This document shows, in pieces, positions 2,111-13,513 of a DNA stretch of 64,000 bases. The DNA is taken from NCBI GenBank assembly GCA_019096065.1, contig JAGUCH010000004.1, positions 8,494,001-8,558,000 of the forward strand, read 5' to 3'. Made by a program: the position numbers and the translations under genes. Each line of letters begins with the position of its first letter. Position 1 is the first letter of the stretch. The notes below the pieces were generated by a model. The model saw only the letters and a list, made by a program, of their open reading frames with translations, did not search any database and was not told the DNA's origin. Origin of the DNA: Paracyclopina nana (Eukaryota; Arthropoda; Copepoda; Cyclopoida; Cyclopettidae).

Positions 2111-4998
2111 TCAAGCAAAACTGTCTGCGGATCTAAGCTCGACAGTGTTAGTCGCTTGGATGTGATGAACCTTTAATGGTTTATATAAAACGGAAAAGTA
2201 AATTATGACGCCTACAAATGCGGTTCCAAATCCCCCTAAGGTTCCATAAAAGAAATCAACTATTATGAATGATGAATCTGACTCTAGAACAGGATGAGTT
2301 GAAACATCTCCCTCATTGGTTGAAGTGCCACTATCAGAGGATGTTGAGGTTGTGGATTGTTCGCTTGCAGTGGTTTCAGAGGAAGTTGGATCAGCAGTTG
2401 TTGACAGATCACTAGTAGTTGTATCAGGTGAAGTTGTAACTACATCAGTTGTTGTAGATTGTTCAACAGTACTTGTTTTGGGTGAAGATGTGAAGGTTGT
2501 TGCATCTGAGGATGTAGATTGTTCACTTGTAGTGGTTAAAGGGGAAGTTGTGAAGGTTGTTGTTTCAGTGGTGGTTGACTGATCACTTGTTGTTATTTCT
2601 GGTGAAGTAGTGATTATTGTGGACTCATGTGTTGTAGTAAGTTCACTAGTAGTTGTCTCTGAAGAAGTTGTGATGGCAGTTGTATCAGCTGTTGTTGACT
2701 GATCACTAGTAGTTGTATCAGGTGAAGTTGTAACTACATCAGTTGTTGTAGATTGTTCAACAGTACTTGTTTTGGGTGAAGATGTGAAGGTTGTTGCATC
2801 TGAGGATGTAGATTGTTCACTTGTAGTGGTTAAAGGGGAAGTTGTGAAGGTTGTTGTTTCAGTGGTGGTTGACTGATCACTTGTTGTTATTTCTGGTGAA
2901 GTAGTGATTATTGTGGACTCATGTGTTGTAGTAAGTTCACTAGCAGTTGTCTCTGAAGAAGTTGTGATGGTAGTTGTAACAGCTGTTGTTGACTGATCAC
3001 TAGTAGTTGTAACAGGTGAAGTTGTAACTACATCAGTTGTTGTAGATTGTTCAACAGTACTTGTTTTGGGTGAAGATGTGAAGGTTGTTGCATCTGAGGA
3101 TGTAGATTGTTCACTTGTAGTGGTTGAAGGGGAAGTTGTGAAGGTTGTTGTTTCAGTGGTGGTTGACTGATCACTTGTTGTTATTTCTGGTGAAGTAGTG
3201 ATTATTGTGGACTCATGTGTTGTAGTAAGTTCACTAGCAGTTGTCTCTGAAGTTGTTGTGATGGTAGTTGTAACAGCTGTTGTTGACTGATCACTAGTAG
3301 TTGTAACAGGTGAAGTTGTAACTACATCAGTTGTTGTAGATTGTTCAACAGTACTTGTTTTGGGTGAAGATGTGAAGGTTGTTGAATCTGAGGATGTAGA
3401 TTGTTCACTTGTAGTGGTTAAAGGGGAAGTTGTGAAGGTTGTTGTTTCAGTGGTGGTTGACTGATCACTTGTTGTTATTTCTGGTGAAGTAGTGATTATT
3501 GTGGACTCATGTGTTGTAGTAAGTTCACTAGTAGTTGTCTCTGAAGAAGTTGTGATGGTAGTTGTATCAGCTGTTGTTGACTGATCACTAGTAGTTGTAT
3601 CAGGTGAAGTTGTAACTACATCAGTTGTTGTAGATTGTTCAACAGTACTTGTTTTGGGTGAAGATGTGAAGGTTGTTGCATCTGAGGATGTAGATTGTTC
3701 ACTTGTAGTGGTTAAAGGGGAAGTTGTGAAGGTTGTTGTTTCAGTGGTGGTTGACTGATCACTTGTTGTTATTTCTGGTGAAGTAGTGATTATTGTGGCC
3801 TCATGTGTTGTAGTAAGTTCACTAGCAGTTGTCTCTGAAGTTGTTGTGATGGTAGTTGTAACAGCTGTTGTTGACTGATCACTAGTAGTTGTAACGGGTG
3901 AAGTTGTAACTACATCAGTTGTTGTAGATTGTTCAACAGTACTTGTTTTGGGTGAAGATGTGAAGGTTGTTGCATCTGAGGATGTAGATTGTTCACTTGT
4001 AGTGGTTAAAGGGGAAGTTGTGAAGGTTGTTGTTTCAGTGGTGGTTGACTGATCACTTGTTGTTATTTCTGGTGAAGTAGTGATTATTGTGGACTCATGT
4101 GTTGTAGTAAGTTCACTAGCAGTTGTCTCTGAAGTTGTTGTGATGGTAGTTGTAACAGCTGTTGTTGACTGATCACTAGTAGTTGTTTCAGATGAAGTTG
4201 TAACTACATCAGTTGTTGTAGATTGTTCAACAGTACTTGTTTTGGGTGAAGATGTGAAGGTTGTTGCATCTGAGGATGTAGATTGTTCACTTGTAGTGGT
4301 TGAAGGGGAAGTTGTGAAGGTTGTTGTTTCAGTGGTGGTTGACTGATCACTTGTTGTTATTTCTGGTGAAGTAGTGATTATTGTGGCCTCATGTGTTGTA
4401 GTAAGTTCACTAGTAGTTGTCTCTGAAGAAGTTGTGATGGCAGTTGTATCAGCTGTTGTTGACTGATCACTAGTAGTTGTATCAGGTGAAGTTGTAACTA
4501 CATCAGTTGTTGTAGATTGTTCAACAGTACTTGTTTTGGGTGAAGATGTGAAGGTTGTTGCATCTGAGGATGTAGATTGTTCACTTGTAGTGGTTAAAGG
4601 GGAAGTTGTGAAGGTTGTTGTTTCAGTGGTGGTTGACTGATCACTTGTTGTTATTTCTGGTGAAGTAGTGATTATTGTGGCCTCATGTGTTGTAGTAAGT
4701 TCACTAGCAGTTGTCTCTGAAGTTGTTGTGATGGCAGTTGTTGAGGTTTCAGAGGAAGTTGTGAAGGTTGTTTCTGGTGAAGAAGGCGTTTCATCAGAGA
4801 GTGAAGTTGTGTACATTGTCTTTTCAGTGGTGGATGACTGATCACTAGTATTTGCTTCTGGTGAAATGGTTAATGTAATGTCCACAGGTGTTGTAGTGAG
4901 CTCAGTAGTAGTTGTTTCTGATGAAGTTGTGAGTTTTATTACACCAGAGGCTGTAGATTGTTCACTGATTACTATACCTAAAATTGTTAAGAGTACTT
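2111..4998 (-). CDS. Mucin-like Thr/Ser-rich membrane protein, 98-residue tandem repeats (5' end unresolved)
   Basis: Open frame of about 960 residues, overwhelmingly Thr and Ser with Glu, Asp and Gln, as expected for a densely O-glycosylated surface or peritrophic mucin. The core is eight copies of a 294-bp (98-residue) unit with exact spacing (anchor points 2430, 2724, 3018, 3312, 3606, 3900, 4194, 4488). The C-terminus has one hydrophobic segment (FFYGTLGGFGTAFVG and following) and a tail of about 29 residues, so a type I membrane protein is likely. The frame has no ATG at its 5' end: a TAA lies just upstream of a TTG codon at 5023, and TTAACAATTTTAG near 4995 looks like a splice acceptor. 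The signal-peptide exon is therefore probably upstream, beyond the 18-bp array. No homolog identified by name. Confidence 0.7.
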
Positions 4999-5034
4999 CT
5001 ATCACTGACTGTTGATTGAACAATTAGAAGGCAC

Positions 5035-5640
5035 AATGATCGCATTGTTCACATTGTTCCAAATGTGCACTATTATCATGTTGTGCACAATGATCCCCTT
5101 GTGCACAATGATCATGTTGTGCACAATGATAGCATTGTTCACATTGTGCACATTTCTTCCGTTGCGCACATTGATCCTGTTGTGCACAATGATCACATTG
5201 TCTACATAAATTCTGTTGTGCACAATGATCCCGTTGTGCACAATGATCACATTGTTTACAATGATTTCATTGTTTACAATGATTTCATTGTTTACAATGA
5301 TCCCGTTGTGCACAATGATCACATTGTTTACAATGATCACATTGTTTACAATGATCACATTGTTTACAATGATTTCATTGTTTACAATGATCTCATTGTT
5401 TACAATGATCTCATTGTTTACAATGATCTCATTGTTTACAATGATCGCTTTGTTCACATTGTGCACATTGCTACTGTTGTGCACAATGATCATGTGGTTC
5501 ACATTGCTGCTGTTGTGCACAATGATCATGTTGTGCACAATGATCTCGTAGTGAATAATGATCCCTTTGTGCACAATGATCCCGTTGTGCTTAATGATCA
5601 CATTGGTCTCATTGTTCACATTGGCCGCATTGTGCACAAT
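5035..5640. repeat. 18-bp palindromic tandem array
   Basis: About thirty degenerate copies of an 18-bp unit of the form TTGTTTACAATGATCTCA or TTGTGCACAATGATCACA. The unit contains TTGTGCACAA, a perfect palindrome, and TGATCA, so the array can fold on itself. Because 18 is a multiple of three and the unit lacks stops, both strands have open frames of up to 215 codons (Ile/Val/His/Asn-rich). It lies just upstream of the mucin-like exon and is probably in its first intron or promoter. Confidence 0.9.
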
Positions 5641-5649
5641 TATCCCCAT

Positions 5650-6100
5650 GTGCGCATCGCATTGTGCATATTTATCACCCCACTACCTTTTTGTTTTTCT
5701 TGGCTAGGTTGAGTTTTCGTCAGACACTTCTGAGTTCTCGTTAATTCAGATTCCCATTGAGAACCTGATGGTGTCTGTATTTGATACCTCGCACGATCAT
5801 TTCAGCTAATCTGAAGTACCTTCAAGTTTTCATTTGGAAATCTTAATTGAGTAAAGTTAAGATTCCTTTGCTGTTACAGCATGCGCAAGAGAACACTTTC
5901 TTGTGAGATCAATGTAGCCTATGTTATGTTGAGTTCTGATTGAATGGATGCGTTTTAACATTTTACATCTTATGTGAACTGCGACTTTAATCTCAAGAGA
6001 TATAGTACTTGTCAAAAAAAAACGTTTGACCAATCAGAAGCTGACACCAACAGCCAATCACTGTACGCAGTTTACGCGGAATCTAACCGCCGGCCAAGGG
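5650..6100. other. Unassigned spacer with two CCAAT boxes
   Basis: No gene recognised. At 6025-6065 two CCAATCA motifs lie about 30 bp apart just before the 127-bp array, which could be promoter elements but have no clear gene partner. Confidence 0.35.
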
Positions 6101-8016: not shown

Positions 8017-8356
8017 AAAAATAGCCCATTAGTGATCTTCTATGTAGTGTAGCCATGTCAAATGTACTGGGCAAAGTTGCCGGGCTAGATGGCGCATGGA
8101 ATCTAGCGACTTTACGCCTTTGGCTTATAGAGACACAAATCATAACAATAACATTGACCATACGGATTCCTTTAGTTTCTTAAGGGCAACACTAGATAGA
8201 GCGGAAAGTGAATCATGGGTTCCAGGCAAAATCACAACTACCTTTAATGCTTGAAATAAATCCAAAATTTGGCCCTTTTGGTAAAAAATTGCATGATTCC
8301 GCAAAAATCCAAAATAACTCTAAAAAACAAAAACAAATATTACCGGCATTGAAAAG

Positions 8357-10826
8357 ATGTCGATTTCGTGCACAATATTTGCCGGCTTTCAGAAGATCTT
8401 TGGAAGAGAATTCCGCATTGACCCCCTCAAAGATGGAAAACAGCTAATTGACCCGAAATCTGAGCATATTTTTGACGTCAAAGAGACATTTTTCAAGAAC
8501 CGCGATGTTTCGTCCATAACAGCCAAGTGTGCAAAGTCGATGAAGTTCAAGGAGACACCATATGTTGTTTCCTTTGACATTAAAAGTGACAGAACTGTAG
8601 TTTGGGATATACTAAAATACGCAACATGCGCAATATGCGCAATATACGCAATATGCGCAACAAACTACTAAAATACGCAACAAGCGCAACTACTAGACTA
8701 CGCAACATGCGCAACTACTAAAATGCACAAGGACAATTTTCGTGATAGTATCAGATTTTTTTGAAACCAACTGGTTTAATTTTCTAATTATTGTCATTTT
8801 TTAATACATGCTTATTTAAAATGTCAGATTAACAAAAAAAAATTGAAAAAAAAGGTTATTACAAATTTTTTTTATCTATGTTTAATAATAATTAAAAATA
8901 GTTATTTTTTTCAAGCTGGGGCACAAAAAATAGGGTCATTAAATAGCTGAGCATGGATTTTAAAAAGGGAAAACTTCTTTTAAGATTGATAATGAGTCTT
9001 AATCTTGCTGAAAAATATTAATAATAAAATATAAATAAGTAGCTGACTTTTTTTGTGATAGTCTTATTCTTGCCAAAAAATGTAATTGATAAAATGTAAA
9101 TAAGCAGCTGATTTTTTTTAATTGTCTTATTCTTACTTAAAATTATATTTGACAAAATGAAAATAAGCAGCTGACTTTTATGTTAATGTCAAAATCTTTT
9201 TGAATTTTAAGTGAAATTCAAGCTAAAGAAGTCAGCAGAGAAATATTAATAAAGAGCTGTGATTTTGCATATGTTGCGCATTTCAGCGTGCTGCAACTTT
9301 CATCCAAAAACAGCCAAAAAATGAATTGGCTAATGAAGACTCATTATAATGCTATTATTACAAAAAAAGCCAATGCTTTCATATTAAAAAGTGCCCTAGA
9401 TTACTATGAAGGACAGTTTCAATAAACCCTTAACCTATTAAGTTTTTTAAAGATTTTAATTCCATTTATTTATTCCAGCAGCAAAATGTATTTCACAAGT
9501 TTAAAGGATGTGCAGAAAGTATTTAAAAAATATTCATGGATATTGTTCATGTTGCGCATTTTAGTAGCTGCGCATGTTGCGCATTTTAGCAGTTTGTTGC
9601 GCATATTGCGTATATTGCGCATATTGCGCATATTGCGCATGTTGCGTATTTTAGTATATCCCCTGTAGTTTTAGCTCATTGCTCTTGTGTGTCGGGTGCC
9701 GGTGGCGAGTGCAAACATTCTGCTGCTCTCTATCAATATGTTAATTCTGAGAGGTGTGAGAGCAAAACAAGTCAAACACAAGAGTTCCAAAAACCTTCAA
9801 AAGTGCTTTGTCAGCTGTACCCAAAGGGGGAAAGCATTCAAGAACTTTATCCAAGGTGCCACATATTTGACCATGACTACAGTCCACCAAGTGATGAAGA
9901 GCTTAAAGACTTGTCCTCCTTAATGGGAAAATTTGGACTTCAAAATCGTAGCCTCTTCAAGTCCATAAATTGCCAGAAAAAACCTGCTTCTCTGCCTGAG
10001 GCCAAGCAGAACTTTATTGAGCCACGAATAGCTGCTATGCTAATGGAGACATTGTCTCCAAATATGCTGGGAAGCAATCATGTTGAAAAGGTAAGTCTCA
10101 CTTCAAATATATCCCATTATGCTCTATAATATCACTACTATTCTTCAGATCATGGACAAAAAACCAAAAGAAGAGAAAAGCTTCTTTGAGTCACATGTCT
10201 TGCTTGATTTGTGTGACGCAGTTAAAATATTCCACAACACAGTTGAGCAAGCCAACAGTCCTGAATGGTTCCTCTTTCGAAAGTTCCGAGTAACAGCCAG
10301 TATTGCGCATCGCTTGAGCCGAGGTCGAAAGCCTGAAACTCGTCTGAAATATTTTTCCGAAGATCTGATGTCAAACAAGAATTTGCAGTACGGAAAAGCA
10401 ATGGAACCTGTTGCTCTGGAGAAATACAAGAAGTTGACCAAAAAAAATGTTCTGCCATCTGGGCTAATTGTTGCCACTGCACTTCCTTGGCTAGCATGCA
10501 CACCTGATGGCATTGTGATTGAAGAAAGCGGAGAAATGTTTCCCCTGGAAATAAAATGCCCCATATCTTGCACAAATTCAAGAATAGAAGTTGATTACTT
10601 GATCAATGACAAGCTGAAGAGATCCCACCCGTACTACTTTCAGTGTCAGCTACAAATTTTCCTATGCAGAGCTAAGAAATGCCCTTTCTTTGTATACTCG
10701 AGTGCGGATCATGTTCTCATTACCGTTGAAAAAGATGAGGATTTTCTGTAGAAAAACATCCAACATTTGGAGCAGATATACTTTAATGAACTGTTACCAG
10801 CCCTAGCTTCTCAAAATGAGGCATGA
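8357..10826 (+). pseudogene. SWIM zinc finger and YqaJ-type nuclease of an ISL2EU transposon, interrupted
   Basis: Second protein of ISL2EU elements, a PD-(D/E)XK nuclease related to phage YqaJ. Left part 8357-8603 encodes about 82 residues ending DIKSDRTVV. The frame then enters a 1,059-bp inserted element and resumes at 9663-9671 with LAHCSC...GGECKH, a CxC...CxH SWIM finger split from its upstream half. Removing the element and one 9-bp duplicate restores the frame. A 58-nt intron (10091-10148) precedes the nuclease exon from 10149, where TPDG and LEIKCP give the D...ExK motif. A TAG at 10749-10751 stops the frame, but it stays open for 24 more codons (NIQHLEQIYFNELLPAL) to TGA at 10824-10826, so the TAG looks like decay. 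The true N-terminus may lie upstream of 8357. Confidence 0.85.
8595..9671. mobile_element. Non-autonomous element with long terminal inverted repeats and 9-bp target duplication (Mutator-like)
   Basis: Element 8604-9662 (1,059 bp), flanked by the perfect 9-bp direct repeat CTGTAGTTT at 8595-8603 and 9663-9671. Its ends start GGGATATACTAAAATACGC on both sides and stay complementary for about 130 bp. The arms are made of about 10-bp units around GCGCAATAT/GCGCAACA, so they also resemble a foldback element. The interior is AT-rich without coding capacity. A 9-bp duplication plus long inverted ends starting with G fits Mutator-like elements; that class is inference because no transposase is present. 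Confidence 0.88.
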
Positions 10827-11532
10827 TTTTCTTTTGAATAAACCACATATGAACTAAGTGAGATAACTTGTGTTAAGTATTTTTAAGGTTGTCACGGAGC
10901 CAGTTATTGCAAATGAAGAGCTTAGTTTAGCAGAGACATCACAAAGTGTAAAAATGTAAGACTAGAGGCTGCTTCACAGCCTGTTATGCTTAACATTAAA
11001 CATGCCTTTTTGCGCCATAAGGCTTCATTTTTTGGCAGCCATACTATGCAAAACTAAGCTTAAAAGATGCAAAAATGCATGATTTTGCCTTGTTCTGCAT
11101 GGCAGGTTGCCACTGAACTCACATGATGATTCATATTTTTCAATACCAAGACACAGTGGGTGAAAAAGCCGTTTCACGCGCATCGGAAAATTGCCCGAAT
11201 TCTCTTTTCACAATCAATTTTCAGTACAGTGCACAGTGGGTTTTTGCCGATTTCACGCGCACGGAAAAAAGTCTGCGATTTGATATAATTTCTTGTGCGC
11301 GTAAAATCGGCTTTTTGATCTACTGTGCAGTGGTGGCAGGTTTCTTCTTTGTCAAATGGCATGAATTCATCAGTGGATGATCTGACCACAATATCTCGAT
11401 TCCTGGGCATCCTAGGAATTTTTGTATGAAGTAAAGAAATAAAGATCTCGCAATTCTAGAGGGGAAATATTAACATACAAAATCCGACCAAGTCAATGCT
11501 TTTGGAGCTAGAAGTTTTTCAAGCAGTAGTTT
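10827..11532. other. Spacer between the convergent transposon genes
   Basis: No gene. It holds a small CACAGTG-ended element (11232-11327) listed separately, and a related half-element starting CACAGTGGG at 11152. Otherwise AT-rich. Confidence 0.5.
11227..11332. mobile_element. Transib-like miniature element, 96 bp, 5-bp target duplication CAGTG
   Basis: Starts CACAGTGGG at 11232 and ends in the near-complement TACTGTG at 11327. The 5-bp duplicate CAGTG lies at 11227-11231 and 11328-11332. Inner arms are complementary (CCGATTTCACGCGCAC against GTGCGCGTAAAATCGG). A second CACAGTGGG end lies at 11152. Termini of this type with 5-bp duplications are the hallmark of Transib elements. It belongs to the same family as 24667-25063. 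Confidence 0.75.
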
Positions 11533-13066
11533 CTATTTGTCTTGGTTTATCAGGTCAGGATACATATTGACAATGAAAGCTATTACATTCATTATGTGAT
11601 CCACATGAACCACAAGATTTTGAGACAAATTCTTCAAAATAGCAAAGTTCTTTAGCCTTGCAATGCACCTTTCTACATGGATCCTAACACTCGCACATTG
11701 ATACCCTTCTTTGTTTTCTTGAGGTGTGAATTGTCTGTTTCCAGACTTGAAAGGAGGCATCACTAAAATGGCTCCTTTATTGTTCAAATCTTGCCTAATC
11801 TTTGGAAACCCTTTGTCTGCAAGGATCACATCTCCTGGTTCAATCAATCTGAGGATTCCAGATTTATTCACAATCTCTGTGTCTGTTGCACGGCCACCAT
11901 GAGCTTTGCTCAAAAAAGTAATTTCCCCACTGGGAGCACAAGCTATCAGAAACTTGACAGTGTAGTGGGCCTTATAGCTGCTGTACATTTGCACTTTTTT
12001 CCTTTGGTTGTCAGGTGTCTCACAAAATATTTCAGTACAGTCTAAGATTGCTCTTGTCTTTGGATAAAGAGCACGAAAACTTGGAGGCATTCTTGAGTCA
12101 ATTGTAGCCCTATCAAACCAAAAAACGCCTTTCTTTGACACATCACCCAAAATGGTCAAGCTTTCGTAGAACCAGCCTGCACTTGTCACTTCATTGATGT
12201 CAAAGAGAGCACTTAAAGCGGAGAAGGACAAGTTGAGCTTCAACTTCATGAGAAAATGAGCTATTTTCTCACTCTTTGAGTGATGTTTAGGTGGCTTTAG
12301 TTTGCCCTCAGCTGCAGCAACAAGGAATCCAAAGAGATTGGATTGAACTCCCATTAATGCCACAAATTGATGCTCTGAGAATTTGCAGAGGTCAATACAG
12401 CCATTGCACATAATGTCATCAGTTTCACATGACTTATTAGAGGATGGCAAATGAGTGGTTGAAGCTGAGGCATTCCTATAGGTCTTGGCAGGAGGGATGC
12501 TAGCCTGGGTAGCTTTTTCAGACTTCATGGGATCCAGAAGATGCCTTGAGTAATCTTCTGATGAAAATATAAGATTATCTTCATAGATGAACAACGATTC
12601 AGTTTGAGTGCTGACAGAATGAAGTCCAGAGTCTTGAGCAGCATAAAAATGGTCCATCAGATCCTACAAAAATAAAGAGGAGGTTAAATTGTTTTCTGAC
12701 TTTCTGGCAAATTACCTCGGCTCTATGAAAGTCCACAGCAGCAGCAGCAACAGAAGGGGGCGGTATGTGTTGCACTTTGGGCACGAAAGGCCTGTGTCTT
12801 GAGCAAAATACTGTTGGCACATAATCCCGTTCATTTCTTGATGGGCTGGGCTTTCCACTGACAAAATGTTCGCTGCAAAGCCTACTTGTTGCTGTTGGAG
12901 CCCACATGCCATCTTTGCGGCTATCGCCATTTCGCACTTTATTTATCGCCAGAGTCCACAGTAACTTCTGTTCTTCATTTCTTGCAGGAAAGCGAAAGTA
13001 ACTTCGATTAACTTTTGCATTGCTTTCAAAGCATCCAGGAACAACACAGTATCCAGTACCAGGCAT
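11533..13066 (-). CDS. THAP-DDE transposase (ISL2EU/DDE_4 type)
   Basis: Two exons, 13066-12716 and 12663-11533, joined across a 52-nt GT-AG intron; about 493 residues. The start is the ATG of MPGTGYCVVPGC at 13066, which puts the THAP zinc finger (C2CH: CVVPGC ... CSEHF, then a conserved P before the C-terminal part) at residues 1-90. The second exon carries a helical region and a DDE nuclease core: the first acidic residue in AILDCTEIF, the second in VILADKGF, the third in RIHVERCIARLK. All catalytic residues are present and the frame is open, so this gene could still be active. An in-frame ATG at 13141 would add 25 residues and is less likely. Confidence 0.9.
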
Positions 13067-13141
13067 TGTGATAATGTTGTCGACGTTATCCAAGGGACAC
13101 GAGTTCAACGCCGGTGTTTTTTTGTTGACATAGATAAGCAA

Positions 13142-13513
13142 GAATCGAAAATAACCCGGAACTATTATTTTTTCATCATTTACTTAAATTCAGTTTTCCA
13201 ATAATAGCTATACAAAATGAAAATTGAAGAGAAAGACTCATGTTACTAATTTAGACACACATTTCATGCAATTTTCAGTTGATGTTACACTTTCTGAGGT
13301 TTTTATCATTATTATTAGCCCCAAATTAAGTATCATGATTCAGTAAACAAAACAATCCTACTCTCGCCAGTTCTTCCCATGTTTTGTCGCAAGTGGTCGT
13401 TGCTTTGTTATGATTTGGTTTTCTATATAGACTATACTTTCAAAAAATGCCACACTCGGCATTGTTTTGACAATAAAAATCCCATTTAGAGTAACGCCGA
13501 AATCAGCGCCATA
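13142..13513. other. AT-rich spacer
   Basis: No gene recognised. It probably contains the right end of the ISL2EU-type transposon, but I could not match it to an end near 8.0-8.3 kb. Confidence 0.4.

Follow-up and report, generated by a model that had tools for sequence, protein, structure and literature searches.

A recent non-autonomous, probably Mutator-type insertion in the YqaJ gene of an ISL2EU-type transposon of Paracyclopina nana

Introduction

In the genome of the copepod Paracyclopina nana, a transposon of the ISL2EU type carries a YqaJ gene whose first coding exon is interrupted by about one kilobase of AT-rich DNA. The locus lies in a window of 64,000 nucleotides (contig JAGUCH010000004.1, positions 8,494,001 to 8,558,000), which is the whole stretch of DNA analysed here, and it raises the question of what this piece is, how it came to be there and when the gene was broken. 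The initial annotation, made from the window alone, read it as a transposon inside a transposon. We have followed this reading through the 92 Mb (10 contigs) of the assembly, and the account that we favour, with a probability of roughly 0.85, is that a MITE-like, foldback-TIR (terminal inverted repeat) element of the Mutator superfamily, itself non-autonomous, recently entered this exon by cut-and-paste transposition.

Results

The inserted element and its target duplicate

8595..8603, no strand: left 9-bp target duplicate CTGTAGTTT, perfect
8604..9662, no strand: inserted non-autonomous element, 1,059 bp, 28.8% G+C, multicopy in the genome
8604..8709, no strand: left terminal inverted repeat, 106 bp, with short reiterated ...ATGCGCAAC... 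units
9548..9662, no strand: right terminal inverted repeat, 115 bp
9663..9671, no strand: right 9-bp target duplicate CTGTAGTTT, perfect

The length, coordinates and termini given for the insert by the initial annotation are exact, and so is the perfect 9-bp duplicate that it described on both sides: the match between the two flanks ends after exactly nine bases. The insert is AT-rich in comparison with the whole window (44.6% G+C) and, as had been said, non-coding, the longest stop-free run of its interior being 79 codons, with no ORF of note. It starts with GGGATATACTAAAATACGC and finishes with the reverse complement of the same sequence. The inverted ends are real, their reported length of about 130 bp being slightly too long; when they are aligned, 106 bp on the left face 115 bp on the right, where there is one extra 9-bp unit.

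The host transposon

about 8129..13424, no strand: ISL2EU-type host transposon, 5,296 bp including the insert, terminal repeats AGAGACACAAATCATAAC / AGAAAACCAAATCATAAC, flanking AT (or TA)
8127..8128, no strand: left AT of the putative 2-bp duplication of the host, partner at 13425-13426, phase AT or TA
8357..8603, + strand: YqaJ gene, 5' half of the first coding exon, from the first ATG common to the host copies C8 and C7 described below
9672..10090, + strand: YqaJ gene, 3' half of the first coding exon, SWIM-like CxCx7CxH motif at 9680-9718, donor GTAAGT at 10091 by eye
10149..10751, + strand: YqaJ gene, second exon, YqaJ nuclease domain at about 10263-10658 (Pfam PF09588, E 5.8e-16)
11536..12663, - strand: host transposase ORF, DDE_Tnp_4 domain (PF13359, E 4.4e-44), open and ungapped against C8
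12602..13183, - strand: THAP-domain ORF of the host transposase (PF05485, E 1.4e-10)

The pairing of a DDE/HTH/THAP transposase with a YqaJ protein characterizes the ISL2EU group of the PHIS superfamily in the account of this group in PMC4482050. DDE_Tnp_4, THAP and YqaJ domains are found within this one element, which also has a putative short duplicate of the AT type, and the classification of the host as ISL2EU-type has held up. In contrast to the published group, the host starts with AGAGAC (or TAGAGAC) instead of the usual GG, a mismatch that is not disqualifying because that account says "usually", and its flanking dinucleotide is AT or TA, the published A|AT|T context not being seen. 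The short inverted repeats at 8129 and 13424 each adjoin this dinucleotide, and in the window as in C8 either phase fits on both sides. For the C8 copy both of these host ends were recovered; for C7 it was the left end, the only one fetched.

The insert was said to separate a SWIM finger from its upstream half. The split is there; as neither the split exon nor its intact counterpart in C8 has a SWIM domain by Pfam, the SWIM reading rests on the CxCx7CxH motif as read by eye. Between the two genes of the host, at 11328-11522, there is a second multicopy repeat of about 195 bp with many genome matches at 80-94%, and most of the places that have it also carry a partly inverted neighbouring copy. 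Elsewhere in the window, at 2111-5712, we observed a long, T/S-rich, tandemly repeated ORF on the - strand, next to which a short-period repeat is open in several frames.

Empty sites

A search with the part of the host to the right of the insert, in which the best 40 of 239 candidates were scored, returned C8 and C7 besides the window, two copies of about 82% identity in which both gene regions are present. The part to the left (12 of 12 candidates scored) led again to C8 and C7, together with nine short matches that cover the first 135 bases of the query and stop before the insertion site. C8 and C7, the two other host copies found to span the site, both lack the insert: the counterpart of base 8603 abuts that of 9672 with no gap, and a single CAGTAGTTT, one base off the duplicate CTGTAGTTT of the window, occupies the site. 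The search for empty host copies that had been suggested as a check thus gave a positive answer, with the reservation that the two copies closely resemble one another and amount to little more than one independent witness.

A multicopy family with 9-bp duplicates

The insert itself has at least 136 matches in the genome (best 40 of 488 candidates scored), and its terminal 19-mer occurs 196 times at up to 2 mismatches, against 0 for the same pattern written backwards. Two near-identical copies, L002 and L003, are flanked by perfect 9-bp duplicates of their own, which differ from that of the window (CTCCAAGAC and TTCAAGCAG, respectively). L002 differs from the insert by 1 substitution in 1,049 aligned bases and L003 by 2 in 1,031, length changes of 13 and 31 columns, respectively, being set aside.

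To pair the TIRs we fetched loci that were picked by best match or promising spacing, which do not represent a random sample. Of the 26 pairs so obtained, 13 have an exact 9-bp duplicate and 3 more miss it by one base; another 3 match exactly over 8 bp, and 7 have no duplicate. Two of the exact pairs, both from L021, lie inside a 9-bp-period tandem array and were set aside as uninformative. Among the 24 informative pairs there are therefore 11 exact duplicates and 3 with one mismatch; the other ten comprise 3 that have an exact 8-bp match at their ends and 7 without a duplicate, perhaps due to mispaired or rearranged ends. De-duplicated combinations of ends from different places, used as a control, yielded 0 exact and 2 one-mismatch cases in 1,043, so that duplication of 9 bp in this family is far above chance. 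The second proposed check, for 9-bp duplicates at other copies of the insert, is answered by these pairs and by L002 and L003, and together with the empty sites of C8 and C7 they support a nested insertion with precise duplication.

Family members are also nested within each other, as in L004 (C2:16115842-16117504), where one at 1491-2563 sits inside another at 1215-2877, each with its own perfect 9-bp duplicate. Two larger rearrangements were observed around family members. In L021 (C7:5139000-5148999), roughly 3 kb are duplicated in inverted orientation at 97%; each arm holds a member, and long tandem arrays of 9-bp and 169-bp period adjoin. L019 (116-4603) and L020 (2174-6655), at 8.56 and 8.94 Mb of C4, are inverted duplicates of one another over about 4.5 kb (98.6%) and lie some 380 kb apart; each of the two holds a family member, and L019 begins in the last 501 bases of the window. 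The termini of the family are absent from viral contigs when searched as one exact pattern, and a literature search with the terminal sequence in two spellings, Repbase being outside its scope, found no match.

Four TIR pairs are 8-20 kb apart, with exact 9-bp duplicates (L034, J1 and J2) or with one mismatch (L035). We had considered that they hold retroelement genes captured between DNA-transposon ends, an idea that was dropped, as LTR pairs are present inside three of the four. Self-comparison revealed direct repeats (LTRs) of 251, 198 and 194 bp at 99.6-100% inside L034, J1 and J2, and no LTR pair was seen by the same means in L035. Thus, in L034, J1 and J2, LTR retroelements inserted into older copies of TIR elements. 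Such LTR-type retroelements in older TIR-element copies, three of them with LTR pairs, were noted at L034, L035, L037-L038 and L039-L041, and one ORF there weakly matches a viral fusion glycoprotein model.

These observations also bear on the view that the insert is original to the gene, as an old intron or spacer that C8 and C7 have lost. The shared frame number of the two flanks would fit such a view; the piece is, however, multicopy at unrelated places, is bordered by an exact 9-bp duplicate of which C8 and C7 have exactly one, and is nearly invariant among three copies, with no more than 2 substitutions in upwards of 1,030 bases. The duplicates and the near-identical dispersed copies refute it, and we give it practically no weight. 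As for the frame, it does match on the two sides, as the initial annotation reported; that insert plus one duplicate is a multiple of three, which had been offered as support, is incidental, because an insertion of any length, once taken out along with one duplicate, leaves the original frame behind. The divisibility means only that both halves happen to share their frame number.

Placement of the insert among the superfamilies

The superfamily placement is an addition of this study, the initial annotation having given none. In MULEs (Mutator-like elements) the duplicate is typically of 9 bp. The portion of PMC6446971 that deals with them gives duplicates of 8-11 bp and long TIRs. The insert family agrees in its duplicates (11 exact and 3 one-mismatch in 24, against 2 in 1,043 control combinations) and the insert in its TIRs (106 versus 115 bp). 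As in Foldback and Tm1-like elements, the TIRs of the family are made of reiterated short motifs, and the ends of the relatives at L021 contain tandem units of approximately 9, 16 and 25 bp.

Transposases of the MULE type (PF10551) are encoded at five loci of this genome. Two of these loci have exact 9-bp duplicates (L014, GATATACCT; L016, CATCAGTAT) and L015 has one of 8 bp; the ends of all three are inverted repeats of reiterated short motifs with a G-rich start, a likeness of style to the insert judged by eye. L017 and L018 showed no ends of this kind. L014, L015 and L016 differ from the insert in their TIR sequences and in coding for a MULE transposase. As a separate observation, the transposases of L014 (4424-6034) and L016 (4808-6037) carry a C-terminal RING finger, that of L016 falling just under the curated cut-off.

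No transposase-bearing element with the TIRs of the insert was found at the MULE loci or by the MULE-protein search of the TIR-element loci: the terminal motif of the family is at none of the five MULE loci (within about 5 kb, up to 3 mismatches), and the MULE proteins, searched against the window and 46 fetched stretches, reached E 0.05 at best. PF12762 gave no match; PF20700, a Mutator domain, has 0 as well, its controls being equally silent. The insert is filed as a probable non-autonomous Mutator-type element by features rather than by a shared transposase, because its 9-bp duplicates, G-rich ends and reiterated-motif TIRs are those of transposase-bearing MULEs of the same genome.

The closest published likeness is with Tm1, a Mutator/Foldback (Phantom-type) group of root-knot nematodes. 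As PMC3169594 presents it in the sections concerned, Tm1 comprises MULE elements with TIRs of reiterated motifs in variable number and mostly 9-bp duplicates, with non-autonomous, MITE-like members and nested copies. Its terminal sequence and repeat motif are different, and it has a transposase-bearing member, whereas none was found for the insert family. The same sections also report foldback TIRs in Galileo, a P-type element; this, together with the autonomous partner that was not found, speaks for a nested insertion of an element from another superfamily with 8-9 bp duplicates (Merlin, Rehavkus or another Mutator branch, P/Galileo, hAT). We consider such an assignment unlikely: the insert resembles the MULEs found alongside it in this genome in the length of its duplicate, in its G-rich ends and in the style of its TIRs, and the Merlin-type domain DDE_Tnp_IS1595 has 0 matches in the genome with a positive control.

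Timing and consequences for the YqaJ gene

Over its 82 codons, the 5' half of the split exon shows 30 synonymous codon differences from C8 and 16 nonsynonymous ones; the 3' half, over its first 90 codons, shows 22 and 8, respectively. In 1,000 simulation runs of random change of equal amount against C8, the mean numbers of nonsynonymous differences were 36.7 and 24.1, and no run (0/1,000) was as low as observed in either half. Stops, which simulated neutral change usually creates, are missing from both halves. These patterns indicate purifying selection on both halves of the exon and, since both are constrained and free of stops, the gene broke late. In the rest of the host, the transposase has 334 of 376 amino acids identical to C8, without gaps and open, and the second YqaJ exon is open with 84% identity over 201 amino acids and one gap. 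This comparison with C8, which leaves the THAP exon aside, brought to light no coding lesion other than the insert.

The youth proposed for the event is retained, on a different basis. Perfect duplicates alone date little; it is the near-identity of the three copies that marks the insertion as recent, in relative terms.

A staggered cut at CTGTAGTTT followed by gap repair would produce the 9-bp duplicate, and a MULE-type transposase supplied in trans would presumably move the element. The insertion would split the YqaJ protein ahead of the SWIM-like motif: the upstream frame meets a stop after 22 codons within the element, and therefore the first 82 residues are separated from both the SWIM-like motif and the YqaJ domain. 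This copy probably no longer has a working YqaJ protein, and the host transposase, judging by its open ORFs, may still be made.

A gene that still works would be expected if the insert behaved as an introner spliced from the mRNA. The left duplicate offers a GT (8597) and the right one an AG (9668), and both exon halves are still conserved, which a recent insertion explains equally well. An intron that starts at 8597 and ends with the AG at 9668, or with the next one at 9674, would, however, lose the frame, because the 1,072 or 1,078 bases removed are not multiples of three, and the element begins with GGGATA, not with GT. We regard this possibility as extremely improbable.

Discussion

The recent insertion of a Mutator-type, non-autonomous element that we favour is a clean example, fit for a textbook, of how one DNA transposon disables a gene of another, in which the empty sites, the duplicates and the near-identical sister copies are all found within one assembly. 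Nested insertions of this kind are common, and the mechanism is nothing new.

A more speculative scenario, which we hold to be quite improbable, is that the GGGATATACTAAAATRCGC family represents an unlisted foldback-TIR Mutator family, amplified very recently and with no autonomous member in the assembly, that is cross-mobilised by a MULE with a different TIR sequence and the same reiterated-motif design. If this were true, recognition would depend more on the architecture of the TIR than on its exact terminal sequence.

For the genome of this copepod, the insert family is one that is active or was very recently so, non-autonomous, and useful for repeat annotation. For the ISL2EU group, the constraint that YqaJ was under until the insertion suggests that this helper protein is of importance to the transposon carrying it.
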